DNA from: Thermoanaerobacter wiegelii Rt8.B1
GTDB taxonomy: Bacteria; Bacillota; Thermoanaerobacteria; Thermoanaerobacterales; Thermoanaerobacteraceae
Length of the DNA stretch: 64,000 bases
Direction of reading: 5' to 3'
Assembly: GCF_000147695.2 (NCBI RefSeq)
Contig: NC_015958.1
Location: forward strand, 2,162,001-2,226,000
Part shown: piece after piece, positions 11,400 through 40,546 of the stretch
Position numbering within the stretch: position 1 is the stretch's first letter
How the letters are laid out: every line of letters starts with the position of its first letter
Notes under the pieces: model-generated
Told to the model about the DNA's origin: nothing
Seen by the model: only the letters and a program-made list of their open reading frames with translations
The model's database searches: none
Program-made: the position numbers and the translations under genes

Positions 11400-11505
11400 A
11401 ACAATTCCTCCATTTTTTGTTTTCTAGATTTGCTTTTTATAATAGCAAATTGTTTAATGCCATGTCAACCTGGACTATAAAAAGTAAAATCAAAAAATAC
11501 AACAT

Positions 11506-11808
11506 TTATTTCCATATCATCACAAATATACCTGCAGTAATGAGTACACTTGCAACTAAAGTTTTTGCGTTGAATTGCTCGTTTAGGATAAAAAAAGATA
11601 AAATCAAGGTCAGGACAATGCTGGATTTATCAATAAGTGCAACCTTTGATACTTCACCTATGGATATTGCCTTATAATAAAATAACCAAGACAAACCTGT
11701 TGCGAGTCCAGAAAGAATCAAAAAGATCCAATTTTGTTTTGTCAAACTTTTAATTCCATACTGTCCCCCTGTTGTAAATACAATACCCCACGCTAAAAAA
11801 ATAATAAC
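11506..11808 (-). pseudogene. EamA-family transporter, C-terminal fragment
   Basis: This open frame reads TVIIFLAWGIVFTTGGQYGI, then QNWIFLILSGLATGLSWLFY, then YKAISIGEVSKVALIDKSSI and on to the stop. That is the last three or four transmembrane helices of an EamA (drug/metabolite) transporter. The N-terminal part is missing: the frame meets the left edge of a 341-bp repeat unit at 11809. The fragment probably marks the old chromosomal sequence next to the Tn7-like attachment region. Confidence 0.8.
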
Positions 11809-12149
11809 TGTTAATTTAAAAAAACCCTTTCCATTTCCAATCCCTCAAACCCGCATAAAATCTACATGTCATTTTCTGGGAGGTAATAAAGTTTTTCCAT
11901 GAAGCAGTAATATTTTTCCTATAATTTACCAAATACATCTCAAATTTGTGTGAAAAAAGTCTTTCCAAAAGGGCAGGATCATGGTTCAAGGAAAAAAGGG
12001 ATAAGTAGCGTAAACCTTGCTTTTTCAAGGCTTACCACTTATCCCTCATCTTCCTCACTACTGCTTGAACCTTAATCCTTTTCCCTTTCTTACCCCTCAG
12101 CGGAACCACTTTTTTCGCATGCAGGAGAGGAATAAATGAAAAATACACA
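11809..12149. repeat. 341-bp TGT...ACA unit, copy A (miniature Tn7-like element or solo ends)
   Basis: Copy A begins TGTTAATTTAAAAAAACCC and ends with ACA at 12149. It shares the left ~90 bases almost exactly with copies B and C and is diverged in the middle. Inside are TAATAAAGTTTTTCC and GAAAAAAGTCTTTCC in forward orientation and GGAACCACTTTTTTCG in reverse. These resemble each other and the AATAAAGT core of Tn7 TnsB-binding sites. A conserved stem GGGATAAGT.../...ACTTATCCC lies in the centre. Copy A is the older, more diverged unit and directly precedes copy B, separated by the four bases TTTC. Confidence 0.8.
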
Positions 12150-12153
12150 TTTC

Positions 12154-12494
12154 TGTTAATTTAAAAAAACCCTTTCCATTTCCAATCCCTCAAACCCGCA
12201 TAAAATCTACATGTCATTTTCTGGGAGGTAATAAAGTTTTTCCGTAAATAAGCTATATTTCGACTAAAAATTCCCAATCATGCTCCTATTTTGTGCGAAA
12301 AAAGTTTGTCCGAATGGGCAGGTTCAAGGGCAAAAGGAAAAAGGGATAAGTGGTGTAAAACCCTCATCTCTCAAGGCCTTACCACTTATCCCTCACCTTG
12401 TTCAATGATACTTGCCCATTAAACCCTTTCCCTTTTCCCTACCCAAACGGAACCACTTTTTTCACACAGGGAAAAGATTTAAATGAAATATACA
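12154..12494. repeat. 341-bp TGT...ACA unit, copy B
   Basis: Copy B begins TGTTAATTTAAAAAAACCC and ends ATATACA at 12494. It is nearly identical to copy C at 58837-59177, with a T/G difference in the shared left part as the only change I noticed. It holds TnsB-site-like motifs at 12230-12244 and 12297-12312 (forward) and 12448-12464 (reverse), and a perfect 12-bp stem GGGATAAGTGGT (12343-12354) with ACCACTTATCCC (12381-12392). It is preceded by ATTTC (12149-12153), the same five bases that follow the glmS-side copy. It therefore serves as, or contains, the left end of the Tn7-like island. Confidence 0.85.
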
Positions 12495-12730
12495 TCGTTT
12501 GGAAATAAGTGGTAAAGGTTAAGACTTATTTCTAAATTAGTCTAACAGTCAAAGTTTGTAAGACTTTCGAAATTTTTAATATAAGATTTCGATTTAATGG
12601 TATTATATACCGCCCATAAGTACCCCAATAATCCTATAATCTAATATTTAAACACAAAATATGGGTCTAAGAAGAAATATTTTCTTAAAATATAATATAG
12701 TTCGAAAAACTATTCCATGGCAAATAACAT

Positions 12731-15700
12731 TTAAATTATTATTCTACTTACACCCAATAAATGATACTCCTCATATGATTGTGCCTTGTCAAAAATGCTT
12801 TTCTTGAATTTGTAATTTATCCTTACAACATATCCTAACCTTAAACCGTAATCAACCAATAGTTTGTTCAAAAATTCCGTTTTCATTAATATACATGTTC
12901 CATGTGGAATTTCCATATCTATATCATTTCTTTCCTTTAACCCTTCTAACCAATCAAAAACCCTAACAATAACTTTATCACGATAATAATAGTTCAGTTC
13001 TTTCTTGTGTAATCTAATTATCATCTCTCTATCCAGGTCCTTTGATAAAATAAATGGAGGATGATAGTCTCTAAACCACTGCCACAAATATATTACTAAA
13101 GGCTTACACCTGTATACTAATGGGAAAATAACCAAATCATTAATCTCAATAGGAATCTCCTCTAACTGCATAACATAGTTACTTGCCTCTAGCATATTAA
13201 AAGGTCTTGGGGCTTTGGGAATTAGCCTTTGCGAAGACCACATAATTTCTTTGGCTACTTCTTCCGCTAAAGGAATATCATTTCCTACAACTTCATATGC
13301 AAAGGCAATCATGGTTATCCGAGTATCAATATTCCCTTTACTCCAACCGACAGACGGTTTAGCTGCACCATCAAGTCCGATAACTTTAAAGTCCCCTTCT
13401 TCATTAATAAGCCTATTAAGGGAATCAAAAAGCCCAGTCTTGGAGAGATCTATATCTCTACTTGACACATTAGTATTAAACCCTGGCCACCAATCAGGAC
13501 ATCTTTGAGGTTCTATCTTCCAATAAGATAATTCTACAGGTAAAGTTATATATGAATATTTCAGATATAAATCCTTTGAAATATTGCCTTGGTCATAATA
13601 ATATTGAAGAACCCTTAAAAAGGCTGACCTATAAACCTCACTAAGATTTGTAGACATTCCAAGAAGTATAGGCAAAGTTCTTCCCCCATAGAAATGCATT
13701 ACTTCATTTTCTTCTTTCTGGAAACCACATTGCTCCATAATCTCATCTGCCGTATATGCCCATTGTTTAATAAAATCTTTCCCCGTCCGCTCTGAAATCA
13801 TTTTTGCAATTTCAAAATAAATTGGTGCTAAAAAGCCTGTTACATTTTTTAAGAAAAAATCGCTGGGATGATACAAATATGGCGCAGGCTTGATATCAAT
13901 AACCTTCTTCGGAACAGTTACTTTTTTATTCAACAGAGTAGCCAATTCATTAACAAGTTTATCAATTACTACAGAAGTTAAGGGTAAAGCAGAAATCAAT
14001 CTATCTATGTCTAGATAGTTCATTTCTTCGGGTCTTGTTGAAGCAGCTTTTATTAAAGGCAACAAACCTATTGCGACTAAACTCTCCAATTTCTGATTAG
14101 ATATAAATTCTATTAATTTGTCCCAAATAAAGATCTTGTTAGAAGAATCTATTAACAAAGAAGCAATAGCTGTTGCAGCCCTTTCCCTGACAAATGGACT
14201 GGGCCACGTCAATCTCTGAAGTAAAATATCGATGACACCAATCTCAGGAAGCATCAGCCATTTACTGGCTGGCAATACTATATCAGCCATCAATTCCTTG
14301 GCAAACAAAATACCTGCCTCTGTTATTTCTTCTGCATATTCTTGTTTGTCGAAAAATAGGAAGAATTGAACACCTCGTAAAAGGGGAACGAAATATTCCC
14401 TACCTCTGCCGTAACGAACTCCAGTATAATAAATACTTTTTTTGAAGAATTCCATATACCTTGTGGGAAAATATTCTTTTAAAAACTTCCATCTCTCAAA
14501 GACTCTTTTTTCATCACTCCAATATTTACCCCACCCACTATGGTTAGCTTGTGCCCAACAAAGATATTCAAAGGCTTTGTTTATATCTTCGTCAAACTCA
14601 TATGCTAGCGGATACAAGAAATCCAGAATTTCTTCATCAGCATTGTGTAAACCTTGTTTTTCAACTATAGTTTTTATAGTATCGTAAATACATCTTTTAT
14701 CTACATCTTCTCTACTATTCCAATGCTTTAACCATTCAGTTAGGAACTGACGCATATCCCATTTTGTCTCAATCCCATCCAAATACTGTCCCAAAGAAGA
14801 TGGAGTAATAACCGAGTAATCTATCTTTTTCTCAGCTGGAAATGGAGAAGATGAAGTAACAGGTCCAGAATAAAAATCATTATTAACTGAATAATCAACT
14901 GGACCTAAATAATCCTGGATTATTGTTAAAGCTCTGTTAGCACCTTCGTTGTTCGCCGCTATGGATTTTAATTCTTCAAAGGAATTAGAATCAAGTGCTG
15001 TCGTGGCTAACCATACTTCTTCATCAGCTTCAAAATTTAAGGACCTTATAACATTTTTGAAAATATCCTCCGCAAGAAAAAGATCTTCCTCATAAGCTTT
15101 TTGATAATAGTATTTATATAAAAGCTCAGGACTAACATTTACCAACAATTCAGCTAAAAATATAGGAAAATGGCGTGTCTCATCCCCATCAGTATATTCA
15201 CTTACATTTTCCACAAGTGGAGCTATTTCACTTATCCATTTTACAGATTTTTCAGAACCTGACTTATGACATTCACGAATAGCATCCATCAGCTCGTCAA
15301 GATACATATCTTTATGGTATCCATATCCTAAGAGATTTGATGCAGAAAGATTCAAGAATTCATTAACTGCATCCACATCATTATAAATTAATGCTAGCCT
15401 AGCCAGCAATGCATACCATCGAGACCTTTCTGAGAAATAAGTAATATGTCTTTTCCAAAATGCTCTTTGCTCCTCTAGAAAATGCCTAAAAGAATCAGTC
15501 GATAAAATAGGAGTCCCTATTTCAAGCAAAAACTGTATAAATTCCTGCGAAGAATAGAATTTAGAGCTATTAATTTTTATATACTCCTCCATTGTTATAA
15601 GAGAAGATTGATTCAAGGATATTTTAATAAGATAAATGCTCTTTAAAATGTTTGATAGGGCAATTGTCAGACTGTGCTGAAGTTCTAATAGATCTCTGTG

Positions 15701-18670
15701 TTCGGGAAACCTTAATTTAGTTACCTTATCCAGGTACTCAAATATTGTTGTATACTCAATAGAGTCTCTGACTTTAATTTTTTTAGCTATAGCTATTCCC
15801 GCTTGGAAGACACAAGATATTACGTCCAAAGCCCATCTTTTCTCTGCTCCCTCAATCCATTTAAAGACTTCCGATTCTCGTTCTCGCAGCCCGTACATTA
15901 CTCCAAGGAAGAAGTTGTTCGAGAATATTTTGGCTCTTTCTGTTCTCTTTCCTGTCTCGTACTCTTTAACATAATACGGAAAATCGTCATAATTGGGTAA
16001 CTTAGGAAGTTTTCCAATATCAACCCCTTTGATAAGCAAGTAGAGCAAGCAAAAATAACTTAAATCGGCTTTGTTCTCAGCACTTATTACTGAATCGATA
16101 TTTTTGTCATTATATTTCAACCCATATTCGGCCAAATTATTAAGGATAGTGTTCCTTTCTTCTTTGGTCAATTCCATTCCAAGCAGTTCTAAAACTTTAG
16201 TTAGTTGTTTGCTTTTTAGCAAGGCTGCCGAATAGATACCGAAAAGATCGCTAGACCAACCAGTGTTTCTAAATTGCTTAATATAGTGATAAACCTTTTT
16301 TGAGCTAATATTTTTAGCACAAGAAACAACCTCTAACAAATAACGTGATATTTGTGGAACCTCGGCACCTATATCACCTTTTGTTCTTATGGTTTGATTT
16401 TCATGCCTGCTGTTGAGGACTTCAATAGCATCATTAATTATTTCTGTTTCTCCATCTTTTACGGCTGCCTCGACAATAATAGATATATTTTTTGAGTATA
16501 ATTTATTAAGATCCCTTTTGTAGATTTCTTCTTTCCTTTCATTACGAAGAAAAGCAACTTCCCATATCAATTCTGCCGATTCATCTATATATTCCAGAGA
16601 ATTTTCATAATAGGTTTTTAACTTGGAGAGCTCATAAGCTTTCCCATATAATCCTCGCTCAAGTGCTGCCTTAATACCAAGTCTTAGCTGGGCAACTATT
16701 TTCAGAGGATCCCTTGGATAGCATATAGCATCAAGCAGCCAGTCTCTGTTTAATTCTAATATTGGCTCAGGGTTGCCCAAGTCATAATATAGTTTCCTTA
16801 ATTCTGCCCACTTAAGTTCTTCATATGGAGATTCCTCAAGCCATTCTTTAAGTATCCGTTTAATTGGCTTTTCCTGCAAATGAAGCTCTGGTCTGTCCAA
16901 AATAAATGTTTCAAAACTATTGTGATATATGAAGATGCCTTGCGATTTTTCGTCAAGCAAATGTGAAATTGCTTTAAACCCTTCCTGTATTTTTATCGGG
17001 TTATCTTCAAATTTGGGAAGGATTTCAAAAAGTTGGAATTTTTTAAAAGAAAAATCAGCTATTGCTACAAGGAAAGCAAATGTTTTCGAGGTTTCAGGAA
17101 GTTTTCTCCATAACGAATTATAGTAGATGAAAATTTCTCCACCATAAGGGAGAAGATCGTCGCAATCAAAAACGGTTAAAAGTTTATTGCCCAGTTTATT
17201 TTTCAATTCCCTTAAAGTATATCGCAGGTGTAGTGGATTCCCCTCAGTTAATCCAAATAGCTTTTCTACTAAGGCTTTTTTTTGAGAACTGTCCTTAGGG
17301 AGATTGAGCCCAAGAAGGTTGGCATTTAAGATTTCCTCAACTGCATCTTTTGAAATCCCTTTAATCTCAATCCATTGTTCTTCAGGGCACTTCTCAAAAA
17401 TAATTTGTGGTAAATACTCTTTAGCACTCATCTGCATGCCTATTAATAACCATAAACCAGGTTGAGGATAGCATACTTCCTTCAAGAATTCTGAAAGCTC
17501 CTTTTCGTCTCTATACTTTAAAACATGGTCCAGACCGTCAATTATTAGCACAAATGCTTTTCCTTTTTCGTATAGCTCTCCTGCTAACTGGGCTATGTAC
17601 TCACGTAGAGTAATATTTTTAGAATTTTTATGGGCAAGATTCCCTAAGTATTGATAATGTTGCTTAAACTGATACTTTATACTTTCAATCACTCGTTGGG
17701 ACTCTAACCTATCAATAGGATTAGGATCATTGGGGGCAATATGGTAATGATGTCTAACTGAAATTACTTTTCGTTCCGTAAGTAGCTTGTGAAGTTTTGA
17801 GAGATATGTACTTTTACCACTACCAGGTTTACCATAAAATACTTTTATGCCTCCCTCTGGATTCATTAAATCTGAAATGATCTTTTCATGCATTTCCCGA
17901 TCGAAAAATACAAAATCTTCGGGTATTTGGAAATTCTCATTAAGAGGCCTCGGATTGTCCCATTCACACCAATTTCTGATTTGTTCTATCAATATTCTGT
18001 TTGTATATGGCTTCCTGGACTCTTTATGAATTTGAGAAAGCAAATTAGTCGCTCCATTCTCGGTCACTCCTAAATCCTCTTGGAGGATTTTTCTTATCTC
18101 CTGTTCTAACTCATCAACATTTTTCTGCCCAAAATAAAAATGAAATTCATTAAAAAATATTTCAATTTTTATCTCGTCAACCAATTGTTCTTTTATTTTT
18201 GCATAAACTTCAGGAAAGTTACTCTTAACAAGGCTGATATCTATTTTATCTCCGTCTAAACACTTTTGTATGTCTTCGTCTGCTATCCCATTACTAACAA
18301 AAGCTGCAAAACTTATCTTACCATCCAATTCAGGTTTAAACATCGACTTAAACCATTTTTGTATTAGCGAATTTTTAGGCTCTCCCTTTGAATTGGATTC
18401 CTGTTTCAAAAGGGAATCCCAGTTCCATTTATCTTTTTTGGGATTTTGCTTATGTTTAAGTTGATATACATGATAAGTATCATCCTGGGTACACAAAATA
18501 ATATCATCCAAAAAGAAATTTCGGTCATTTAATTCATCAGGAACTGTTTCAAACCTAATCCATTTATATTTATCAGGGTTCTTTAGCCATTCAACGCAAA
18601 GAAAAGCTCCCCATAAATCCTGAAAATCAAGTCCGCTCCTAATCGGACTAGTTGGATTCTTCCTATTCAT
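12731..18670 (-). CDS. Avs-like antiviral STAND NTPase with Cap4-like nuclease domain
   Basis: This 1979-residue protein has the layout of antiviral STAND (Avs) proteins. Residues 1-220 resemble the Cap4-type dsDNA nuclease: SGLDFQDLWGAFLCVEWL at 12-29, then a FFLDDIILC strand with the D55/D56 pair and VYQLKHK with the QxK-type element at 69-74. Residues ~255-550 form the NTPase, with Walker A YGKPGSGKST at 279-288 and Walker B FVLIIDGLDH at 373-382. The rest, about 1400 residues, is helical and repeat-like, as expected for a sensor that binds a phage protein. In known Avs proteins, target binding triggers oligomerisation and DNA cleavage; which phage protein is sensed here is unknown. It is single, intact cargo between the left end and tnsD. 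Confidence 0.82.
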   Translation of the reverse strand: MNRKNPTSPIRSGLDFQDLWGAFLCVEWLKNPDKYKWIRFETVPDELNDRNFFLDDIILCTQDDTYHVYQLKHKQNPKKDKWNWDSLLKQESNSKGEPKNSLIQKWFKSMFKPELDGKISFAAFVSNGIADEDIQKCLDGDKIDISLVKSNFPEVYAKIKEQLVDEIKIEIFFNEFHFYFGQKNVDELEQEIRKILQEDLGVTENGATNLLSQIHKESRKPYTNRILIEQIRNWCEWDNPRPLNENFQIPEDFVFFDREMHEKIISDLMNPEGGIKVFYGKPGSGKSTYLSKLHKLLTERKVISVRHHYHIAPNDPNPIDRLESQRVIESIKYQFKQHYQYLGNLAHKNSKNITLREYIAQLAGELYEKGKAFVLIIDGLDHVLKYRDEKELSEFLKEVCYPQPGLWLLIGMQMSAKEYLPQIIFEKCPEEQWIEIKGISKDAVEEILNANLLGLNLPKDSSQKKALVEKLFGLTEGNPLHLRYTLRELKNKLGNKLLTVFDCDDLLPYGGEIFIYYNSLWRKLPETSKTFAFLVAIADFSFKKFQLFEILPKFEDNPIKIQEGFKAISHLLDEKSQGIFIYHNSFETFILDRPELHLQEKPIKRILKEWLEESPYEELKWAELRKLYYDLGNPEPILELNRDWLLDAICYPRDPLKIVAQLRLGIKAALERGLYGKAYELSKLKTYYENSLEYIDESAELIWEVAFLRNERKEEIYKRDLNKLYSKNISIIVEAAVKDGETEIINDAIEVLNSRHENQTIRTKGDIGAEVPQISRYLLEVVSCAKNISSKKVYHYIKQFRNTGWSSDLFGIYSAALLKSKQLTKVLELLGMELTKEERNTILNNLAEYGLKYNDKNIDSVISAENKADLSYFCLLYLLIKGVDIGKLPKLPNYDDFPYYVKEYETGKRTERAKIFSNNFFLGVMYGLRERESEVFKWIEGAEKRWALDVISCVFQAGIAIAKKIKVRDSIEYTTIFEYLDKVTKLRFPEHRDLLELQHSLTIALSNILKSIYLIKISLNQSSLITMEEYIKINSSKFYSSQEFIQFLLEIGTPILSTDSFRHFLEEQRAFWKRHITYFSERSRWYALLARLALIYNDVDAVNEFLNLSASNLLGYGYHKDMYLDELMDAIRECHKSGSEKSVKWISEIAPLVENVSEYTDGDETRHFPIFLAELLVNVSPELLYKYYYQKAYEEDLFLAEDIFKNVIRSLNFEADEEVWLATTALDSNSFEELKSIAANNEGANRALTIIQDYLGPVDYSVNNDFYSGPVTSSSPFPAEKKIDYSVITPSSLGQYLDGIETKWDMRQFLTEWLKHWNSREDVDKRCIYDTIKTIVEKQGLHNADEEILDFLYPLAYEFDEDINKAFEYLCWAQANHSGWGKYWSDEKRVFERWKFLKEYFPTRYMEFFKKSIYYTGVRYGRGREYFVPLLRGVQFFLFFDKQEYAEEITEAGILFAKELMADIVLPASKWLMLPEIGVIDILLQRLTWPSPFVRERAATAIASLLIDSSNKIFIWDKLIEFISNQKLESLVAIGLLPLIKAASTRPEEMNYLDIDRLISALPLTSVVIDKLVNELATLLNKKVTVPKKVIDIKPAPYLYHPSDFFLKNVTGFLAPIYFEIAKMISERTGKDFIKQWAYTADEIMEQCGFQKEENEVMHFYGGRTLPILLGMSTNLSEVYRSAFLRVLQYYYDQGNISKDLYLKYSYITLPVELSYWKIEPQRCPDWWPGFNTNVSSRDIDLSKTGLFDSLNRLINEEGDFKVIGLDGAAKPSVGWSKGNIDTRITMIAFAYEVVGNDIPLAEEVAKEIMWSSQRLIPKAPRPFNMLEASNYVMQLEEIPIEINDLVIFPLVYRCKPLVIYLWQWFRDYHPPFILSKDLDREMIIRLHKKELNYYYRDKVIVRVFDWLEGLKERNDIDMEIPHGTCILMKTEFLNKLLVDYGLRLGYVVRINYKFKKSIFDKAQSYEEYHLLGVSRIII

Positions 18671-18904: not shown

Positions 18905-20782
18905 CTATTCTTTAATCATTTTTAGTATATAGTTCTCCATATCTTGACAAAATTCCTTCCTTATCCCCGCCTTTCTTAACACTTTCCACATTTTTAGTTC
19001 TTGCCCTTCCTTTTTCAATTCCTTAACTGCCCACTTTATCCTTCTTAACTGAAAATCCTTCCTGCTTTCCTGGACCGAATCAAGGTACTGGTTCGTAAGG
19101 GGCAACTTATCCAAGTGTTTTTCAAGTAACGCTCTTATACCCAATTTGCTCCCAATAAGGCTTATAGTAATCCTTTCAGGCTTTTCTGTAGAGTTCAGCA
19201 TTTCCTCGACTACCACTTTTACCTTGGCCAATATTTCCTTGTCCCTTTTGTCCCAATCAACGCGCGTGTTTCTATATCTATATATCGGCTCTGGAGAATT
19301 AAACTTAAGCCATTCTTTGTCATTTCTATACAGCCAAGCGTAAACTGCCTTGTTTAACTGACGAAGTTCCGTTTTGCTTTTGTCAGGATACTGATTCATT
19401 AACTTAAGCCATTCTCCTCGGTAATAATCCTTCTTATCAGCATTCGTAATGCTGTTCCCTTTATCTTGAATAAGTTCCCGCTTACTTCTTTTCTCCCAGT
19501 AAGTCTCAAGTCCCAGCTTGGCTGCATATTTCTTTACCGTCTTCGGATCTGCTCCCATCAGCTTTGCTGTTTGTCTCAAGCTCAATCCCTTTTCGACAAG
19601 TTCCTTAAGCTTTGCCTCCCACACATGCCCAAATTGCTTAATCTTCCCAACCTTATACCGAGATTCTTCAGTAACATCAGGCCCTGTCCTAACATATACA
19701 AATCCGCAGTCACAGGAAAATGTTCCAACAGGCCTTTTTGTATCGTTGCTGTAAGATATTTTGAGTTGTTTTACCACAGGTTTAAGGTAATGTTCCGCCG
19801 CAGGGTTAAGGCACGGCCAGGGTCCGTCTCCAAACGGCTTATAGGTTAACTGCCTGTAAAACAAATCGGGAATGGTTATGCCCAAAAACCTTGCCAAAAG
19901 CAAATGCCTTATAGGATGGCTTGCCCTGTTTCTCCCTCTGACCATATCTGCCAGCCAATTGTTATCACTGCCGATTTCAATACTCGATTGCACAAGTGTC
20001 AAAAATTCCTCACCGTAAAACTGTACAAATTCCTTGGTCAGTTTTTTCTGCATTACATTCCCATTTATAGTAGCAAAGCCTTGCTCCATTAACTTCGCTC
20101 GATACTGCTCATGAAACCATTCCGTGGGGCGCCGTTCAAACTGGTTGTTAAGCAAAAATTCAACATCTTTTGCCAGATTGTTTAAATGTGACATAGTTTT
20201 ATCCGAGTGTACAACTACCTTATCTGACTTGATACAATTTTCCTCGCTGGCAGCAACATATTGATGCTTATTGTAGCCCTTAATCGGCACTTTGCTGTCG
20301 CAAAGCATTACCTGATGTTTAGGGCACACAAGTACCCCAGGGATCTGGTGGATACGGTGCCAGTACAGCTCTCCGTACCGTTCCTTATCTTCTTCATTAC
20401 ACAATGGGCAGAACCTGAAATAATGGTTTGATACCACGCTGCTTGCCATGATACCCGTCTTGCCGTAAATCCCTTTTCCATTTCTTTTCATCATGTTATT
20501 CCTAACCCATTGAGCCCTTTTTGGTGGCAGGAATGCTGTGTAAAACGGGAAAAGGGTGTGGTTGTCTATAAGATAGTCCGCAGTATATTCAGTGTTAAGT
20601 GGCATGTTGCTTATTAAAGCATTAATGTTCGATGGAAGTTCCACTACAGCCGTAGCATTTTTAGTACCGAAAACATCTTCCATGGTGGCTTTAAAGCTGA
20701 TATTTCCGCTCCGCAGGTGGTACCGCGCCAGGACGCTGTATAACAGCTCATCGGGGTAAGGTGTAGGAAAGAACGGCATCAT
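18905..20782 (-). CDS. tnsD: TnsD/TniQ-family target-selection protein
   Basis: This 625-residue protein selects the target site, most likely the 3' end of glmS, and recruits TnsC. The N-terminus (MMPFFPTPYPDELLYSVLAR) is the TniQ/TnsD signature. A zinc-binding segment CPLCNEEDKERYGELYWHR followed by CPKHQVMLC lies near residues 140-175. The middle and C-terminal part (GTFSCDCGFVYVRTG, and LSLRQTAKLMGADPKTVKKY, an HTH-like stretch) is typical of longer TnsD proteins. The start is taken as ATG at 20782 with GGGG nearby, just past the tnsC stop. The gene ends the tnsABCD operon and no tnsE was found in the window. Confidence 0.93.
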   Translation of the reverse strand: MMPFFPTPYPDELLYSVLARYHLRSGNISFKATMEDVFGTKNATAVVELPSNINALISNMPLNTEYTADYLIDNHTLFPFYTAFLPPKRAQWVRNNMMKRNGKGIYGKTGIMASSVVSNHYFRFCPLCNEEDKERYGELYWHRIHQIPGVLVCPKHQVMLCDSKVPIKGYNKHQYVAASEENCIKSDKVVVHSDKTMSHLNNLAKDVEFLLNNQFERRPTEWFHEQYRAKLMEQGFATINGNVMQKKLTKEFVQFYGEEFLTLVQSSIEIGSDNNWLADMVRGRNRASHPIRHLLLARFLGITIPDLFYRQLTYKPFGDGPWPCLNPAAEHYLKPVVKQLKISYSNDTKRPVGTFSCDCGFVYVRTGPDVTEESRYKVGKIKQFGHVWEAKLKELVEKGLSLRQTAKLMGADPKTVKKYAAKLGLETYWEKRSKRELIQDKGNSITNADKKDYYRGEWLKLMNQYPDKSKTELRQLNKAVYAWLYRNDKEWLKFNSPEPIYRYRNTRVDWDKRDKEILAKVKVVVEEMLNSTEKPERITISLIGSKLGIRALLEKHLDKLPLTNQYLDSVQESRKDFQLRRIKWAVKELKKEGQELKMWKVLRKAGIRKEFCQDMENYILKMIKE

Positions 20783-20787
20783 CCAGA

Positions 20788-22449
20788 TCACCCCACTTGG
20801 AATATAACATTGTCTATACCTTTTATGAGCTCCTTCTCCTTTAACGCCTCATAAGCCGTCATCTGCTTCTTTCTGCCTTCCTCGACGATAAAACGGATGT
20901 CGTTTTCGTTCATCTTTTTGATAGTGCGTCTGGGTTTACGATTCATTTTTTCTCCAGGTGAAGAAAGAAGCTGGATCGCCTTTACCGCCAGCTCCGAAAC
21001 ATCAATCTTCTCCCCTTCTGCTTCCATTACCTGTTCTACAGCTTTTTGGGCTTTCTTTGCTTCGATATTAAGCTCCAGCAGTTTTGTAATCGCCTGTTCC
21101 TTAATAGAAAGCGACGCTTTTTTCTCTTCTTCCTGTCTTTGCTTTTGCAGCGCTTTCAGCCGCATTTCCGCTTCTACCGTTTGTCTGCTCCTGTCAAGGA
21201 AACCTGCAAAGTCAACATTTACGGTGCAGATATCATCATATTTTGCAATCTCCCTCAAGCCTCCTTTTTTCAAAGCCTGCAGCATGGGCTGTACCAGCTG
21301 CAAATTTTCTTTGGCAACCTGCCTTATAAGGTTAGGAGTGATTTCTTCTTTTCCCGAAACAATAGCTCTAATTTGTGACATAGCATAGAGCTTAACGACA
21401 ATATCGGTAATACCCTGGCTTTCTTCATAGAGCACTTCATTGATTTCATCGGTAAGCTGGGTTTCCTTTTTGGTCCACTGATAGCCCCAAAGTGCATCTA
21501 TAAGAAGCTGCCATGTATCGTCTTTTTTTAGTCTTTCCCAGATCATATCACCCTGTCCGCTGCCCCGACGCGCCTGTCTGAACTGCGATTGCAACACATT
21601 CAAAGCTTTTGGCGTGCCGATCAAAACTATAGGTAAACCAATGGTATTGACCAAGCTGACAAAGAAGTTTAGCATCCGCTGATCCCCTCCGCTTTTTGCT
21701 TCATTTAGGTGCTGGATTTCATCGATTACAAGCAGGCCAAGGCCGAGGTTCTGGGCGATCTTGCAGATAGCAGTTACCATATTGTCGACGCTGTAGCGCC
21801 CATTTCCAAATTTTTTATAGTAGTCTGTCCCCAACAAGTTGTCCACTTTGTTAAAAAATTCAATACACAGACCTTTTATAGAGCCGTCGAACGGGCAGTC
21901 AAGCTTGAGCCAAACCAATTGATACACGCTGAATTTGGTTTCTTTATAGCGCGAATGTATGATCACCTGGGGATACATGCGCAGGATCTGGTTTACCGCC
22001 GTGCTTTTGCCCATACCGCTTACGCCGACGATGCTGAAACCTGAAGCAGTGGTCCGAAACAATTCATTGGTTTCCAAAACTCCATTAATTCCTTTATTTA
22101 TCTCATCCGATTTTTTCAAACTCTGCACAAATTGAGGCTTTAAAGGGTTGCGGGCAAGGTAACCCTGCCTCAATACCCTTGAGATCCTGCTTTCCATGTC
22201 AAGATGAACGGGAAGTGGCTGAAATATTTGAAAAAGCCGCTGAACCATGTGAATGCGGTAATGGCTTTCAAGTTTCCTCTCCTCGGGATGATATGGCGGG
22301 TAATAAGCAAGCCTTTCAGCCGCCTCTTCAGCGCATAAAATCGGAGGAAGGGCTTCGATGAAGGGATTCCCTCGGTATTCTGGAATTACCTGCTCTTTAT
22401 ATTCTGCAGGGACAGCCACCGTACCGTTTGGTATTTTCAGTTTATCCAT
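20788..22449 (-). CDS. tnsC: TnsC AAA+ transposition regulator
   Basis: This 553-residue ATPase links the target selector to the transposase. Walker A GVSGMGKST lies near residues 143-151, and Walker B LGLLVIDEIQHL is about 95 residues later. Downstream, NTIGLPIVLIGTPKALNVLQ carries sensor-type sequence. The C-terminal region is charged and coiled (KKASLSIKEQAITKLLELNI), the likely contact region for TnsA and TnsB. The start overlaps the end of tnsB and the end nearly touches tnsD, showing translational coupling. Its base composition looks clearly more G+C-rich than the flanking chromosome (by eye). Confidence 0.95.
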   Translation of the reverse strand: MDKLKIPNGTVAVPAEYKEQVIPEYRGNPFIEALPPILCAEEAAERLAYYPPYHPEERKLESHYRIHMVQRLFQIFQPLPVHLDMESRISRVLRQGYLARNPLKPQFVQSLKKSDEINKGINGVLETNELFRTTASGFSIVGVSGMGKSTAVNQILRMYPQVIIHSRYKETKFSVYQLVWLKLDCPFDGSIKGLCIEFFNKVDNLLGTDYYKKFGNGRYSVDNMVTAICKIAQNLGLGLLVIDEIQHLNEAKSGGDQRMLNFFVSLVNTIGLPIVLIGTPKALNVLQSQFRQARRGSGQGDMIWERLKKDDTWQLLIDALWGYQWTKKETQLTDEINEVLYEESQGITDIVVKLYAMSQIRAIVSGKEEITPNLIRQVAKENLQLVQPMLQALKKGGLREIAKYDDICTVNVDFAGFLDRSRQTVEAEMRLKALQKQRQEEEKKASLSIKEQAITKLLELNIEAKKAQKAVEQVMEAEGEKIDVSELAVKAIQLLSSPGEKMNRKPRRTIKKMNENDIRFIVEEGRKKQMTAYEALKEKELIKGIDNVIFQVG

Positions 22450-24604
22450 CACTTTTCTGTAGTGCCTCCTTCTGCTTTCTCTTCAATAATTCCAACTGTC
22501 CTTCCTCTTCCCCTACAGTTTCTTGACTGTTCCCAAGCGTGACAACAGGAGCCAGTCCTTTCGAAGTCTCTTTTTTCAGTTCAAAAGCTTCCTTCTCTCG
22601 ATTGGCAAGCTTTTCCGCCTGACGGTTTGCCCTGATGCTCCTTTTCTTTTTCGTATCACTTTCTCCGTCATCCTTTGTCACAGCTGTAGCTTTCTGTGCC
22701 TCTTGCACTATATGCTGGATTTCGGTAATCAGTTCCGCTTTTGCCTGGGCCTCACTGTCGGCTGCCTTTTTCTGTTTGAGCTTTTCTAAAGCCAATAAAT
22801 TCTGTATTTCATCAAAAGTCTTATCTTTGTATCTAACTTGATGATCAAGAAGGTAGCATTTTTCGAAATTGATACCGTCCGCATCTTTTATGTAAATATA
22901 GTTCATGTTCCGCGGGTCGAAACATGCCTCCACCTTCCAGGTCCCGTTCATTCTGGCTTTTTCAGTCCATCTCTCCTCCAGCATGAGTGGCGAGCCGTAG
23001 TACAGGTTCTTAAACCTTATGCCTCTCGGCGTAACAGTTGCCGTATCGCTGGGCATAAGGTGGAGCTTTACAATATCCTCGGGCACACTCCGCAGTTTTC
23101 CTGCACGGTTTTCTATCCCCCAGTTCCAGATTTCCCGCGGGATACACTCAACATCGTCGGCAATCATCATTTCTTCTTGGTTATAATTTTTCAAATAGTG
23201 CTGGTTGTTATGGTAGAGTACGCACTTGATAATAATTTGCGTAAATTGGTAAATGTCAAGTTTGGCATCAAGCCTGTAGTCCCTGTCTCCCCGCTCCCGC
23301 CCCTCGGGATCGACGGTACCAGGGACAACAGACTTGTACTGCAAATTTACGGTTCTGAAATACTGCTCGATAATTCCTTTCCAATCGCAGCGGTAAGGCG
23401 GGGTGTTCATTATTTTCACATGGAGTCCATTTACAAGGTTTTCGGCATTTTTGCCCTCCAGCTCCCCACGGTCTGCAAGGATGGCCTCGGGAATATGATG
23501 AACTGGCCAGTCCTCTTCGGTTATTTCAATTCCGTATTCTTTGCAGAAAGCAACTTTATCACTTGCCGCATTTGCAATTGCCATCATAGCTCCATTCCAT
23601 GAAGGCCCTTCCAATCCAACATAAATTCCCACAACCATCCTGCTGAAAACATCGATAATAGCGTAAATTACTGGCCGCCCGATAATCCAGTTGCGGTTGT
23701 ACCTTGACACGAGATACACATCCGCCAGCGTAGCATCTACCTGAAAGATGGAGCCTGGTCCCATAGCCTCTACAGTAGAACTTCCTAAGACTGGCCTGTA
23801 CTCATGCTCATATTTCTTTGGACTGAAACGGGTGGATATTTCTTTCTTTATATTGCGCTCTTTCTCAAACCAGTAGCGGAACTGCCAAAAGGTAGGGATT
23901 TCCGATGCAGGCTTTAAGATTGGAACCTTAACGCCGCTTTCAATTTTAAATCCTTCAGAAAAGTATTCTTTACGCATCAGTTCATAAGTTAGCCGCAGGG
24001 AATGCTTGGCAGAAGAGTAGTAAAACTTGTTAATGGCATTGCGGAATATCTTTTTGACATCTTCATCTACATTTATGCCTTCGCCTACAATATCAGCGTG
24101 CTGCCTCGGCCTGCCCCTTTTGGCACTGCCTATCCTTTTCTCTTTTCCTCTGCCGCCGCACAAATAAAATGACGGCAGCAGAGCATTTTTTGTCTTCCCG
24201 TTTCTCCAGTATTTTTTGAGGTAGTTTCCGATCGTCTTTACGGATACACCGCTTTTTTCAGCAATGGCTCTGATGTATTTGCTCCGTTCTTTTCGATAAT
24301 AGATGTGAGGTTCAAGGGTGACGATTCCGCCAATCAGCTCCCACGCCTTGTCTCGCATATGCCGTTCTTTTTCAGAAAGTTTGTCCTCCTCTACGACCCG
24401 TAAAAAAGGATCGTTATGCAATACAGTTGCAAACCCTTCATTTATCCCTTCCTCAATTTCGCTAATCGTTACTGCAAAAGGAAATTCATTTGCTTCTACA
24501 TCAATTACGAAAGCCAGATCGGATTGACGATCCAGCCATAAGATTCTCTCAATACTTGTTTCTCCACCATTTTCCCATTTGATAAGCATATTAACCGCCA
24601 GCAT
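22442..24604 (-). CDS. tnsB: TnsB DDE transposase
   Basis: TnsB binds the repeated sites in the transposon ends and carries out 3'-end cleavage and joining. This version has about 720 residues. An N-terminal helix-turn-helix region (YIRAIAEKSGVSVKTIGNYL) precedes the catalytic core. The triad appears as QVDATLADVY (first D), ILADRGELEG (second D) and KGIIEQYFRT (E), with spacing like Tn7 TnsB. A long charged C-terminal tail follows. ATG at 24604 is preferred because GGGGGGAAGG lies just upstream; a longer start overlaps tnsA further. The gene overlaps tnsA by 14 bases and tnsC by 8. Confidence 0.95.
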   Translation of the reverse strand: MLAVNMLIKWENGGETSIERILWLDRQSDLAFVIDVEANEFPFAVTISEIEEGINEGFATVLHNDPFLRVVEEDKLSEKERHMRDKAWELIGGIVTLEPHIYYRKERSKYIRAIAEKSGVSVKTIGNYLKKYWRNGKTKNALLPSFYLCGGRGKEKRIGSAKRGRPRQHADIVGEGINVDEDVKKIFRNAINKFYYSSAKHSLRLTYELMRKEYFSEGFKIESGVKVPILKPASEIPTFWQFRYWFEKERNIKKEISTRFSPKKYEHEYRPVLGSSTVEAMGPGSIFQVDATLADVYLVSRYNRNWIIGRPVIYAIIDVFSRMVVGIYVGLEGPSWNGAMMAIANAASDKVAFCKEYGIEITEEDWPVHHIPEAILADRGELEGKNAENLVNGLHVKIMNTPPYRCDWKGIIEQYFRTVNLQYKSVVPGTVDPEGRERGDRDYRLDAKLDIYQFTQIIIKCVLYHNNQHYLKNYNQEEMMIADDVECIPREIWNWGIENRAGKLRSVPEDIVKLHLMPSDTATVTPRGIRFKNLYYGSPLMLEERWTEKARMNGTWKVEACFDPRNMNYIYIKDADGINFEKCYLLDHQVRYKDKTFDEIQNLLALEKLKQKKAADSEAQAKAELITEIQHIVQEAQKATAVTKDDGESDTKKKRSIRANRQAEKLANREKEAFELKKETSKGLAPVVTLGNSQETVGEEEGQLELLKRKQKEALQKSDG

Positions 24605-25451
24605 AAGCCTTCCCCCCTTTTCTGGCGGCATCGGTTATATCGACACTATAAGCGGGGCGATTAAGGTCAATAGGCTCGTCCATATTTACCTTGATCCTTT
24701 TGACCGCAAGAAGGTGCCTGAACAGGAACATCCCTGTTCCTGGATCAAGCCCATAATCTTTATCAAATTCCAACGCCGTTTTACGAATTGATTCGGAGCT
24801 TTGGGAGAGCCTTAATAAAAAAGCGTCCCCCAGCTCAACCAATTCACTTTCAGTTAACCCTGCATCCATATAAGCATAGCGCGCTGAATGTATCCATTCA
24901 ATGTTTTTTGCTTTGACAACAGGAATATCTTTATTCGTTACGATTCCCCAATCGATACCCCTTGCCTGCCAATAGCGCCTTTCTATTTCAAGCCGTTCAA
25001 GGCTTATTCTCTTCTCCAGCTCACTTGCCGCCTTAAGACTCCTCGCTACATACCTTACATTACCATCATGATCCTTTACCGTGATCAAAAACGAAGTTGA
25101 AATAACATAGGTGGTTCCCGATTTTTTGTCGGTAAACAAATCAAACCGCAAGTCTTCTCTATCCTGTACCCAGTCTCCATAATCCAAGAGGGGAAAATGT
25201 TCTCTGATGTCAATTACTGAATCTTCCCATTCAAGCAGGTAGAAAAATCTGGCCTCGCTGTCAGTGAAAAGATGGTGAATCCGTCCTGTTTTCCATCCGA
25301 AAATTCTATGGCAGCGGCCCTTTGACGGAAAATCTTGAACAGTTAACCAGGGCTTATAGTCTTTCCCTTCTCCCCGTCCGCGTCCTTCTTTTAGAAACCT
25401 TTTATATTTTTCTTCCGACCAGTCAGTATTGTATTTCCCAATATTCCTCAT
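24591..25451 (-). CDS. tnsA: TnsA endonuclease-family transposase subunit, catalytic Asp replaced by Ser
   Basis: TnsA makes the 5'-strand cuts that allow cut-and-paste movement in Tn7. The 286-residue protein aligns well with Tn7 TnsA: KDYKPWLTVQDFPSKGR, then GRIHHLFTDSEARFFYLLEW with E66 and E76 at the spacing of Tn7 E63 and E73, and ARSLKAA with K140 at the place of K132. At the position of D114 (Tn7 STDFLV) this protein reads ISTSFLI, so the residue is Ser120. TCG to an Asp codon needs two changes, so a single read error does not explain it. C-terminal TnsC-binding region features (EIERRYWQARGIDWGIVTNK) are present. It is the first gene of tnsABCD, with AAAAGGAG before the ATG. Confidence 0.93.
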   Translation of the reverse strand: MRNIGKYNTDWSEEKYKRFLKEGRGRGEGKDYKPWLTVQDFPSKGRCHRIFGWKTGRIHHLFTDSEARFFYLLEWEDSVIDIREHFPLLDYGDWVQDREDLRFDLFTDKKSGTTYVISTSFLITVKDHDGNVRYVARSLKAASELEKRISLERLEIERRYWQARGIDWGIVTNKDIPVVKAKNIEWIHSARYAYMDAGLTESELVELGDAFLLRLSQSSESIRKTALEFDKDYGLDPGTGMFLFRHLLAVKRIKVNMDEPIDLNRPAYSVDITDAARKGGKAYAGG

Positions 25452-27478: not shown

Positions 27479-28027
27479 TTGATCGGCGAAAGACTTAAAA
27501 TGCTTCGCAAAGAGAAAGGACTTACAATGAAAGAAATTGGGGAAATCATTGGAGTTTCTGATGCAGCATGGACCAAATATGAGAAGAACCGTGCTGAACC
27601 TTCTATAGAAAGTCTTATTAAAATTGCTGATTATTTTCAGGTTTCACTTGACTTCCTTCTTGGGCGTACCAACATACGGGAACCACAGTTTGTAGAAAAA
27701 GCTAATATACAAAGTGAATTTTTGAAAGAATTCGAGTGGTCAAAGATAGGCGACCCATCTCAAATGTATTTTTTAGTGGAAAATCTTTCTACTTCTATCG
27801 GAAAATATAATGAACATAAAGTAACAGAATCAGAACTGCAATTGCTGCTAAAAACTATCAGCGATGTAGTTCTTTATTTCAATACCCTTGCGGAACTGAA
27901 AGAGAAAGACAAATGTATTACAAAACAAGCCTTAGCCGAACATCGAAAAATTTTATCTCAAATTATTGAAGACCTGAACGACATTTTAGAAGAAGCATAC
28001 AAGGATGTATTAGGCGGAAAAAAGTAA
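27479..28027 (+). CDS. XRE-family transcriptional regulator (CI-like)
   Basis: This 182-residue repressor-like protein has an N-terminal helix-turn-helix (RLKMLRKEKGLTMKEIGEII and SDAAWTKYEKNRAEPSIESL, residues 4-60) and a helical C-terminal dimerisation region. The start is TTG at 27479 with AAAGGAG upstream. It is divergent from the small XRE gene and followed by the tyrosine recombinase on the same strand, an arrangement common in integrative elements. No peptidase motif of the LexA/CI self-cleaving type is seen. Confidence 0.88.
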   Translation: MIGERLKMLRKEKGLTMKEIGEIIGVSDAAWTKYEKNRAEPSIESLIKIADYFQVSLDFLLGRTNIREPQFVEKANIQSEFLKEFEWSKIGDPSQMYFLVENLSTSIGKYNEHKVTESELQLLLKTISDVVLYFNTLAELKEKDKCITKQALAEHRKILSQIIEDLNDILEEAYKDVLGGKK

Positions 28028-28158: not shown

Positions 28159-28187
28159 TCCGATTTATGGTATGGGAGGTAACTGTT

Positions 28188-29063
28188 GTGGATTGGTTAG
28201 AAAAGTTTGAAGAGGAATTAAAACAAACAGGGAAAAGTCAAAATACAATTATAAGTTATTGCACAGACATAAAAGAATTCTTGAAGTGGTTTTCCGATAC
28301 ATATGCGAAGGAATTCGACGGTAGAATTCTTGAGCAAGACGTTCGTGAATACCGTAACTACTTACTAAACATAGCAAAGTTAAAGCCATCCTCCATTAAC
28401 AGAAAGATGGCCGCTTTAAAAAACTTCAACCAGTTTCTTATCCAAACTGGCACAGGGATAGAAGCAGACATTTGTGGTATTTCTGTGGCCGACATTCATG
28501 ACAGAGAAATTAGAACCATTAGCCGCAATGAACTTAACAGGCTTAAGCGTGCAGTATATGCAAGCGGAAATAAGCGAGATATAGCATTGATCGAGCTTTT
28601 GATAGGAACAGGTGTAAGAGTTTCCGAACTCGTTTCTTTAACCACAGAAGACATCCATTTAACTGCACGAAATGGCAAAGAAAACTATTCATATATTGTT
28701 ATCCGTAATGGGAAAGGCAATAAATATCGAGAAATACCTTTAAATTCCCAAGTCAAAAAGGCGTTGGAAGAATACCTCGTCACAAGGTCACATTTAAGTG
28801 GCAGAATTTTCATCGGCCAGCGTGGCCCGCTGAGAAGAGAATCGGTTGATAAAATTATTAAAAAATACTGTCGTATGGCAGGCATCGAAGAAATTTCCGC
28901 TCATGTCTTGCGGCATACTTTCTGCACCCGTTTGATGTCCGAAAATGTTCCCATACCTATCATCTCAAAGCTGGCAGGCCATTCAAGTATTCAAACCACC
29001 ATGGACTTCTATGTTCGAGTTAGCCGAGCCGATAAGACTGCTGCAGTGGAAAAATTAACCTAA
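28188..29063 (+). CDS. Tyrosine recombinase (XerC/D-like phage-type integrase)
   Basis: This 291-residue site-specific recombinase has a SAM-like N-terminal core-binding domain (KFEEELKQTGKSQNTIISYC). Catalytic residues are visible: the first Arg in GTGVRVSELV near residue 145, HVLRHTFCTRL (HxxR) near 240, LAGHSS (second His) near 263, and the Tyr nucleophile in MDFYVRVSRAD near 275. GTG at 28188 is chosen because GGGAGG precedes it. It could integrate the replicon module or resolve cointegrates of the Tn7-like element. A strong terminator follows. Confidence 0.93.
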   Translation: MDWLEKFEEELKQTGKSQNTIISYCTDIKEFLKWFSDTYAKEFDGRILEQDVREYRNYLLNIAKLKPSSINRKMAALKNFNQFLIQTGTGIEADICGISVADIHDREIRTISRNELNRLKRAVYASGNKRDIALIELLIGTGVRVSELVSLTTEDIHLTARNGKENYSYIVIRNGKGNKYREIPLNSQVKKALEEYLVTRSHLSGRIFIGQRGPLRRESVDKIIKKYCRMAGIEEISAHVLRHTFCTRLMSENVPIPIISKLAGHSSIQTTMDFYVRVSRADKTAAVEKLT

Positions 29064-30447: not shown

Positions 30448-32211
30448 CTAAACAGCCTCACGATAAACAAGGTTTCTCGCTTCCGTCTCCGTGATATAAA
30501 AATCTTCCATAATCTCATGCACAAGTTTTTCTTTTTCTATTATGCTTTTATCTGCTTGTATGCTTTCTTTTTTCTTTTCTGCTTCCATTTCTTTCTCTTT
30601 TTGCATTTTTCCCGTAACACAAGACAAAAAATATGCGTTTACTTCATCTCGGAAACTCTTTTCTTGTGTTTTTTGCGTTTCTAGTGCGTCTGAAATAAGT
30701 CCAAACTTTTTGCGGTATGTCTCTATGTCCACCGCCTCATCAATCGCATGTTGTATTTTTCTTGTTACAATCTGGTAAAAAGCCGAATCCCGTGGAGCAA
30801 CCATCTCGCCGAAATCCTTATACCTGTCATGTGTGTTCTTTTTTGGATATACTAAAATTTTCACTCTCGAAAAACCAAACTTTTTCATCTTTTCATAAGT
30901 TGCAATATTTGCTTTTATTCCGTCATCCGTACTATCGTATGCTAAAATCACCTCTATATCTTTCCCAAAAACTTCCATTAAGAGTTCTATCTGCCGTTCA
31001 GATATAGAATTTCCGAGTGTCGCCACAACCGCAACGCCATCAAGACGGTAGCAATAAACTCGTGCTGCATCCTTTGGCCCCTCGACGAGCACGACTTTTT
31101 TATATTCATTCGGATTTTTTACATACTTGTAAAGGAGATAGAGGTTTTCATCGCGTTTAAAACCAACAGTATTAATAATTCTCGATGTCAGCTTTTTCTT
31201 TTTATTGTTTTTTTGTTCCTTTGTAATTTCCAAGTTTTCCCAATACTGTTTTTTCCAAAAATTATCGCTCAAAACTTTATGTTCTCGTTCTTGTTCATCG
31301 TCAAAAATGCTCCGTCCCTGCAAGCCAACCACTTTCCCATTTATGTCTTTGATAGCATAAATGACACGATAACGGAAGTCGTTCGATTCGTTGCAATCAG
31401 CCGATTCGCTCCCGTCTCTGTAATAAATATCACACTCTTCCATCTCTTGTGCATTAAATCCTAACTTCTCCATATACATACATTTTCCCTTGGTTTCGCT
31501 TAAGATTTTTTCAACATTCTTCTCGTTTACAAAACCTCTTACTCCATTTGTCTTACCTATTATTTTTTGAGTTTCTATATCTCTTTCTTGCGAATTCTCC
31601 TCTAATATTTCCCATACAGTTTCGATATTGTCAACAAAAAGATCGGCACTTTCTTTCAAAAGCCCCCAAATATCCCCCGTAAAACCACAGCGAAAACAGT
31701 TTCCATGCGGCAGGGCATCTTCATTCATAAAAATTGCAAAATTTTCGTGTTCACAAATTGGACAAATATCAAGCTTCACAACATAATCACTAATATCTAT
31801 AATTTCATACCGTTGCTTTTCAAAAATCTTTGCAATTCTTTCAGTGTTCCATTTTGCGTCTAAAATTTCTTTTTTTATTTTTGCAAGTAGAAATTTTTTT
31901 GAAAACAGCAGAGCAAAATTCACAATATCATCCATTTTTATGTCATTTGATAAAAAGTTTTTTAGTTGCTTATACGTTTCGTAATCGGCTTTGTAAAAAA
32001 TCGGATTCCATAAATAGCCATCTTTTTGATTTACTGACTGTTTATAATTAAAGTGTCGTAGTTGCTTCCAGTCTGCGTTTTGTAAAGCGTTTTGAATAGC
32101 TTCTTCGATAATGTCTTGAAAAGTCTTTTTTGTTTCAACTATTTCATTATAGCGTGATAAAATCTCGTTGTATTCTTTGTATAAATTTTGTATAATTTTC
32201 ATTAAGCACAT
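30448..32211 (-). CDS. DnaG-like primase with zinc finger and TOPRIM domain
   Basis: This protein of about 587 residues is probably the replication primase of an integrative element. Near residues 150-175 (from this start) a zinc-binding element reads CPICEHENFAIF then CFRCGFTG. A TOPRIM domain follows with KKVVLVEGPKDAARVY and, about 50 residues on, ILAYDSTDDGIKAN, the acidic metal-binding motifs. The N- and C-termini are helical. The start is ATG at 32211, four bases after AAGGAG, with ATG at 32202 as alternative. It shares its N-terminal plan with the protein at 34023-35129. Confidence 0.8.
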   Translation of the reverse strand: MCLMKIIQNLYKEYNEILSRYNEIVETKKTFQDIIEEAIQNALQNADWKQLRHFNYKQSVNQKDGYLWNPIFYKADYETYKQLKNFLSNDIKMDDIVNFALLFSKKFLLAKIKKEILDAKWNTERIAKIFEKQRYEIIDISDYVVKLDICPICEHENFAIFMNEDALPHGNCFRCGFTGDIWGLLKESADLFVDNIETVWEILEENSQERDIETQKIIGKTNGVRGFVNEKNVEKILSETKGKCMYMEKLGFNAQEMEECDIYYRDGSESADCNESNDFRYRVIYAIKDINGKVVGLQGRSIFDDEQEREHKVLSDNFWKKQYWENLEITKEQKNNKKKKLTSRIINTVGFKRDENLYLLYKYVKNPNEYKKVVLVEGPKDAARVYCYRLDGVAVVATLGNSISERQIELLMEVFGKDIEVILAYDSTDDGIKANIATYEKMKKFGFSRVKILVYPKKNTHDRYKDFGEMVAPRDSAFYQIVTRKIQHAIDEAVDIETYRKKFGLISDALETQKTQEKSFRDEVNAYFLSCVTGKMQKEKEMEAEKKKESIQADKSIIEKEKLVHEIMEDFYITETEARNLVYREAV

Positions 32212-32310
32212 CACTCTCCTTTGATTAGGTTTCTTATTCTCCTTTTTTTGAGTAGTATGTACGAGGGAGTAACTGAGAAACATGAAACGCAACAAAAAAA
32301 TTTTCTGTAA

Positions 32311-32808: not shown

Positions 32809-32897
32809 ACAAACCACCTCGCTTTTAATTCTCTACAAACATAATAGAAAAATATTCATGCTTGAGTCAAGTTTTTATTCAATATTTTTTGCAAATA

Positions 32898-40538: not shown

Positions 40539-40546
40539 ATTTTCAC

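Follow-up and report, generated by a model that had tools for sequence, protein, structure and literature searches.

A 47-kb tnsABCD insertion behind glmS in Thermoanaerobacter wiegelii Rt8.B1 with a mini-Tn7-like unit at both ends, and its possible origin as a cointegrate

The stretch of DNA analyzed here (the window, 64,000 nucleotides of Thermoanaerobacter wiegelii Rt8.B1) contains, next to glmS, a set of Tn7-like transposition genes and three copies of a non-coding unit of ca. 341 bp. A previous sequence-only reading explained these units as insertions of a miniature, non-autonomous transposon mobilized by TnsABCD. This poses the question whether the units were inserted independently or are parts of one larger element and, in the latter case, how an element with such ends could have entered the chromosome.

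The units and the insertion behind glmS

The three units are located on the forward strand at 11809–12149 (U1), 12154–12494 (U2), and 58837–59177 (U3), where the sequence-only reading had placed them, and all have TGT/ACA tips. Its observations that U1 and U2 are adjacent with TTTC between them (12150–12153) and that one unit sits at attTn7 were also confirmed: the tip of U3 lies 25 bp from the stop of glmS (59203–61065, reverse strand), the target gene of TnsD. No ORF of at least 80 aa occurs within U1, U2, or U3, in agreement with the reported lack of a reading frame. The equal length attributed to the three units holds for U2 and U3 (341 bp), whereas U1 is 341 bp long only if an extra terminal ‘CA’ is counted, which offsets a 2-bp deletion in its hairpin loop. 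U2 and U3 are identical at 340 of 341 positions and their similarity ends exactly at the TGT/ACA tips; U1 is an older, diverged unit (~80% identity to U2/U3, i.e., 94% in the first 105 positions and 68% in the remainder), stacked outside the insertion described below. No unit copies beyond these three were found in the 2.79-Mb genome. A truncated reading frame at 11475–11808, which is longer in G002 and G004, stops exactly at the left tip of U1.

Read in the orientation of the window, the unit consists of a left end, a hairpin, and a right end with the ACA tip. The putative left end comprises the TGT tip and three TnsB-like sites ~67 bp apart (in U2 at 12154–12311, forward strand, with the second and third sites at 12228–12243 and 12296–12311), and the putative right end two adjacent TnsB-like sites followed by the ACA tip (12449–12494, reverse strand, with the full motif at 12449–12464). 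For the TnsB-like motif GNRAAAAAGTNNNTCC, 1.5 occurrences are expected and 14 were counted, a number that was not attained in any of 100 shuffles; 11 of the 14 fall within the units or beside U3; at the level of sequence, this bears out the earlier suggestion that TnsB-like motifs lie on both sides of a conserved stem-loop. These features support the view that the unit has everything required of a Tn7-type mini-transposon.

The hairpin (12342–12394, reverse strand, in U2; ~59025–59077 in U3) has a long stem followed by TTTTT in the direction of glmS, like a Rho-independent terminator, and a predicted fold of −34 kcal/mol (z = −5.5). In G009 and G010, which lack the insert, the order is glmS, terminator, yjbQ, and in G010 the insertion position falls inside the native glmS terminator. 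The genome G031 possesses two full copies of glmS (L132 and L133); a unit-derived hairpin is present directly behind both of them and the right tip is gone. As covariation in the hairpin is weak (two-sided changes in 2 of 20 pairs), the main arguments for a terminator role are its T run, its location, and the remnant in G031. It is likely that the unit hairpin is a replacement for the glmS terminator disrupted by the insertion. Among known RNA families only a weak, sub-threshold match to Phe_leader was obtained, and this fell outside the unit.

The sequences flanking U2 and U3 indicate how these two copies are related. From the TGT tip at 12154 to the ACA tip at 59177 the insertion measures 47,024 bp, and it is bordered by TTTC on the left (12150–12153; 5-mer ATTTC at 12149–12153) and TTTC on the right (59178–59181; 5-mer TTTCG), a probable target-site duplication of 4 bp whose two copies are shifted by one base. 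On the inner side, U2 is followed by TCGTT and U3 is preceded by AACTA; these two flanks differ from each other and from the outer ones, recur in other species and, therefore, form part of the element. Directly after the right tip of U2 a left inner arm is present (12495–12536, forward strand), consisting of T[ACG]GTTTGG and a purine tract, and this junction recurs, in the more general form T[ACG]GTNNGG with a purine tract, after the distal unit in G006, G008, G012, G011, G016a, and G034. Its inverted relative, the right inner arm (58792–58836, reverse strand), ends with CCCCTAACTA directly before the left tip of U3; the proximal units of G003, G006, G016a, and G021 likewise have CCCCTAACTA in front of them, and those of G034, G020, and G087 close variants of it. 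Judged from these flanks, U2 and U3 are the duplicated terminal direct repeats of one 47-kb insertion that carries tnsABCD. That the units are the ordinary inverted-repeat ends of a big element was rejected, since they are in direct orientation and each contains both ends.

The inner-tip junctions (ACA followed by TAGTNNGG and TGT preceded by CCNAACTA) are conserved across different unit families, as far as G087. An extra right-end-like array of overlapping TnsB-like sites occurs inside the element (58728–58791, reverse strand); it has its own TGT tip, is separated from U3 by the 45-bp purine/pyrimidine arm, and is conserved in G003, G006, G016a, G021, and G034.

Between U2 and U3, homologues of tnsA, tnsB, tnsC, and tnsD, recognized from Pfam and PDB matches, form one operon on the reverse strand: tnsD (18905–20791; TnsD/TniQ, Pfam TnsD 3e-138), the selector of the glmS site, tnsC (20788–22452; Pfam AAA_22/TniB), the transposase gene tnsB (22442–24631), of which the three DDE acidic positions align with those of Tn7 TnsB (7pik, E = 5e-114), and tnsA (24591–25451). 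On the forward strand, the gene of an HTH regulator (27479–28027; Pfam HTH_3) lies ahead of that of a Xer-like tyrosine recombinase (28167–29063; Pfam Phage_integrase 4.9e-35), a candidate resolvase with an 85% identical copy in G034. The reverse strand further encodes a primase-like protein (30448–32295; Toprim, DnaG-N), a plasmid-type replication function, and a small NikA-like protein (32500–32817) of which the match to a mobilisation protein is sub-threshold (25.8 bits vs. a cut-off of 27 bits). The cores of related elements contain recombinases of the tyrosine type (G000, i.e., the window element, G034, and G416) or a serine resolvase (G087), and no recognized resolvase was encountered among the G011 core genes scanned. 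Plasmid-type (ParM-like) actins, which belong to the segregation functions of plasmids, occur in the cores of G087 and G416, with a fragment in G011, and the G034 core combines HTH_36 with a primase, that of G000 a primase with the weak NikA-like match.

The core also holds a gene for a 1979-aa Cap4-nuclease/NACHT protein (12731–18670), likely a defence gene, of which a 95% identical copy is present in another genus (G012) in the same order of unit, NACHT, and tnsD, and a fragment in G017. Other constituents are a restriction/defence-type cluster at 37308–55102 (MTES_1575 nuclease-helicase, GmrSD, PLD-helicase, DUF1156, DUF3780, and DUF499), and, at 40098–41886 and 55805–57055, an insertion sequence of the DDE_Tnp_1 type and remnants of the IS21 type (IstB, rve, Mu-transpos_C_2).

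Related elements and the active site of TnsA

Terminal direct repeats are also present in related elements. In G034, which belongs to another family and of which TnsB is 94% identical, the order ATAAC, unit, tnsDCBA, cargo, unit, ATAAC, glmS extends over 31.7 kb, with a perfect 5-bp duplication outside the pair, ATAAC directly beside unrelated sequence on the left side, and unit copies that are ~99% alike, with one 1-nt indel in the unit. In G416 a 462-bp repeat with TGT/ACA tips is 100% identical and has TCTCT outside both copies; in G087 the repeat is 1179 bp long, also 100% identical, and made up of ~2.5 arrayed units; CCCAT borders both copies on the outside and also separates the stacked units. 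Duplications of 5 bp, which the sequence-only reading had proposed to look for, are perfect in G034, G416, and G087, whereas that of the window is shorter by one base and shifted by one; a 4-bp rule, derived from the 1-nt-shifted duplications of G000 and G023, was dropped after the perfect ones had been found. In G011 (TnsB 64% identical) a block of 1440 bp is repeated at 99.7% and the direct repeat runs ~1 kb past the left tip. The repeats of G017 are ~78–88% alike; in this genome, tnsB is interrupted by stop codons and the matches to tnsC and tnsD are fragmented. Between the elements of G000 and G034 the unit is only ~84% alike vs. 94% identity for TnsB (tnsB DNA ~11% different), which indicates that the copies were made alike again in each lineage. 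The unit copies behave as if they were identical at integration and diverged afterwards.

The elements with such repeats differ from other Tn7-like loci in TnsA. We take E63, D114, and K132 to be the active site of Tn7 TnsA. In an alignment with Tn7 TnsA (1f1z/1t0f), the window TnsA has kept E63 and K132 and has Ser120 (codon ~25092–25094) at the position of D114. Serine occupies this position in G000, G034, G011, G013, and G017, and E63/D114 are replaced by Q/S in G087 and by Q/T in G416, so that D114 is lost in all seven elements of the clade. Both E and D are intact in all other full-length TnsA sequences of the survey, which covered 399 genomes of the phylum together with cyanobacterial (Nodosilinea) and Tn7 sequences; the Asp is kept by eleven relatives and by Tn7. 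A scan of genome contigs for TnsB yielded a cyanobacterial relative as its only match, which can serve as an outgroup with intact TnsA. The assignment of a catalytic role to D114 derives from what is known of Tn7 and from its invariance in the intact relatives. On this basis the TnsA of the clade would be CATALYTICALLY dead. Nevertheless, purifying selection still acts on tnsA (dN/dS 0.115, a value close to those of tnsC and tnsD), and TnsB has retained its acidic DDE positions.

The seven elements lacking D114 are monophyletic in the trees of TnsA, TnsB, and TnsC (0.997, 0.991, and 0.998, respectively; the TnsC tree leaves out G017 and G416, of which the matches were too short). The loss is a single evolutionary event and its link with the terminal repeats, therefore, counts as one independent contrast, not as seven. 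The repeats of G087 and G416 were predicted from their TnsA before these loci were examined, and both have them. Six loci with intact TnsA (G309, G172, G125, G389, G083, and G148) revealed no non-coding direct repeats flanking tns; the direct repeats near G083 and G148 were rejected as transposon ends since they overlap reading frames. The distance between tnsA and glmS amounts to 10–34 kb in those members of the dead-TnsA clade that are inserted at glmS and to 0.15–3 kb in four intact loci with the canonical layout (G083, G125, G389, and G172).

Proposed integration as a cointegrate and its alternatives

In the reading that we consider probable, the element is circular and plasmid-like and enters attTn7 through replicative transposition of its 341-bp unit, hereafter M. 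M would be a minimal Tn7-type transposon composed of a left end, a terminator-like hairpin, and a right end, and would reside at a fixed place on the circle, with tnsABCD, the recombinase, the replication-type genes, and the defence cargo outside its tips. TnsD would pick the site 25 bp behind glmS, TnsB would nick the tips of M and join them there, and the TnsA without catalytic Asp would leave the second strands uncut and M not freed. With a TnsA unable to cut the second strands, the strand-transfer product would be replicated and become a cointegrate, in which chromosome, target-site duplication, M, the whole circle, M, target-site duplication, and chromosome follow each other, i.e., U2-core-U3. 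Recombination of M with M, by RecA or the element’s own recombinase, would remove the core and leave a solo M, and repeated rounds would stack copies of M at attTn7 (U1; G023), where the hairpin would probably take over from the disrupted glmS terminator. The anatomy, the duplications, the clade-wide loss of the catalytic residue, and the lack of such repeats in the intact relatives examined are seen in the sequences, whereas a circular form, cointegrate formation, its resolution, and a terminator activity are inferred. The unit-core-unit order with its outer duplications is that of a cointegrate product, and in view of the recombinases and plasmid-type genes we take the core to be a circular element that has integrated.

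This route has parallels in the literature. The D90A mutation of TnsA in the Vibrio cholerae CAST results in >95% cointegrates with the donor backbone between duplicated mini-transposons (Vo et al., PMC8188705). Similarly, the loss of tnsA together with a gained resolvase is taken to predict a replicative route (Benler et al., PMC8649781), and the Shapiro intermediate and its resolution are described in a review (PMC11406308). Against this reading, plasmid and phage collections contained no M-like DNA and no free single-M circle, and viral contigs neither the left-tip 30-mer nor close relatives of TnsB; the shifted 4-bp duplication of the window and the G011 core, with its longer repeat and no recognized resolvase among the genes scanned, also count against it.

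The anatomy itself would be identical if a circle with a single M had recombined homologously, in a Campbell-type event, with an M already resident at attTn7, the copies of M acting as portable homology and transposition having placed only the resident one. The G011 repeat, which runs ~1 kb past the left tip and needs homology outside M, fits homologous recombination better than a cointegrate and indicates that such recombination takes part at least there; the G087 repeat, a 2.5-unit array formed with the local CCCAT, points in the same direction. However, this leaves unexplained why the anatomy accompanies the loss of the TnsA Asp and is absent with intact TnsA, and G416 and G034 need no pre-existing unit, the ATAAC of G034 being directly beside unrelated sequence on the left. 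We therefore regard it as rather unlikely as the general explanation. An ordinary cut-and-paste transposon whose long terminal direct repeats were homogenized by gene conversion agrees with the outer tips and the target-site duplication, which fit a simple insertion, but seems quite improbable: the residue for second-strand cleavage is absent from TnsA in 7 of 7 elements, such a transposon has no reason to keep a full set of both ends at each terminus, and conversion would have to be very recent to account for repeats that are 100% identical in G416 and G087.

Even less probable, in our view, is that U1, U2, and U3 were each inserted independently as a non-autonomous mini-transposon served by TnsABCD in trans. 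The presence of both ends in the unit, the tns-less solo units at attTn7, and CATT on both sides of a G023 unit all agree with such a process. For U2 and U3, which the sequence-only reading had regarded as separate insertions of this kind, it was rejected: neither has matching flanks of its own, the duplications enclose both units together, and the sequence on the inner side belongs to the element and is conserved in other species. Finally, the stable hairpin with its T run, directly behind both glmS copies in G031, could suggest that the unit is no transposon end but merely a regulatory sequence or terminator of glmS that has become repeated. The TGT/ACA tips, inverted TnsB-like arrays, target duplications, and horizontal spread between families render this scarcely credible.

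The integration of a circle as a cointegrate, our preferred reading, also bears on units found without a core. The proposed search for further copies, in the genome and its relatives, returned the three of the window and related units in 17 of the 37 genomes of the class, 14 of these 17 being without a TnsB homologue. Copies at attTn7 without tns genes, another expectation of the sequence-only reading, are indeed present in other species, including G023, where the stack behind glmS comprises two full units plus a right half in duplicate and the inner unit has CATT on either side. Constant edges apply to the full copies, whereas many other copies are truncated. None of U1, U2, and U3, taken singly, has a target duplication of its own; those at single units, CATT around a unit of G023 and CCCAT among the stacked units of G087, could both be scars. 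A solo unit of G016 and one G012 unit, which is followed by the NACHT gene and tnsD, share their left neighbour sequence; their similarity is 94% in the first 105 positions and drops to 80% beyond these, which would be expected from recombination between unequal copies. The solo units (U1 and the G023 stack) look mostly like scars of core loss, and mobilisation of the bare unit in trans may account for U1 and some solo units. In many cases (U1, G006, G023, and G027) the sequence bordering the left tip is older and truncated, which suggests deletions beside the tip.

In G016 (L030:10100-10800, 591 kb) a hybrid unit far from glmS, with its first 106 bp of the window type joined to another unit family, is flanked by the right inner arm and, at its opposite end, by a TAGT arm; this is similar to the junction presumed for the circle. 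Units of a second family (hairpin CCCGTAG...CTGCGGG) occur beside window-type units at attTn7 (L085:9860-11400 in G023, L131 in G027, and contig 12 of G006) and are often truncated at the tip of the newer unit.

With somewhat less confidence we also lean toward a broader view, i.e., that a natural clade of elements directed to attTn7 has abandoned cut-and-paste transposition, with a dead but retained TnsA, the cointegrate as the way in which a circular, plasmid-like element integrates, a mini-Tn7 attachment cassette of ~340–480 bp with its own terminator, recombinase-assisted exit, and stackable scars.

Comparison with known systems

The element resembles Tn7 in its TnsA, TnsB, TnsC, and TnsD homologues, in its insertion 25 bp behind the stop of glmS with the right end beside this gene and, in relatives, a 5-bp target-site duplication, and in its spaced left sites, clustered right sites, and TGT/ACA tips. 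It departs from Tn7 in the lost catalytic Asp of TnsA, in a tns operon far from the glmS-side end, and in the full left-plus-right unit that is directly repeated at both termini, for which the expected product is a cointegrate instead of a simple insertion. A switch of Tn7 from cut-and-paste to replicative transposition is already known from engineered TnsA point mutants, and Tn7 TnsA D114A is such an engineered active-site mutant. The window element shares the loss of the active-site Asp with the D90A mutant of the V. cholerae CAST, and the product reported in that study (PMC8188705) corresponds to its anatomy; unlike in engineered mutants, the loss is natural and clade-wide and tnsA is still under purifying selection. 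It appears that the active-site loss is natural and fixed in this clade and that the predicted product is preserved in closed genomes. In the open-access papers found, as far as their text was accessible, an M-core-M arrangement is not described.

If correct, this would reveal how a transposon can turn into an integrating plasmid, and stacked mini-units at attTn7 would be explained with no need for a mobile MITE. Solo units and the divergence of the repeats could then serve as a tool for dating past integrations, and the thermophile proteins could be used to probe the remaining role of a catalytically dead, conserved TnsA.

TnsA-less systems of the Tn5053/Tn402 type and the type V-K CAST are comparable in that a replicative route with a resolvase is predicted for them (PMC8649781, PMC11406308); unlike these, the element keeps a dead TnsA, has its tns genes outside the tips of M, uses a mini-unit of 340–480 bp, and targets attTn7. 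Like MITEs and mini-Tn7, the unit is short and non-coding, has both ends and no transposase inside, and would be mobile only in trans, but unlike MITEs it would be the fixed integration cassette of a larger element, most intact copies likely being ends or scars. With IMEs and integrating plasmids the element shares site-specific residence in the chromosome, plasmid-type genes, and a presumed circular form; unlike in IMEs, a Tn7-type transposase that duplicates the cassette, and not an integrase acting at attP/attB, would carry out the integration.
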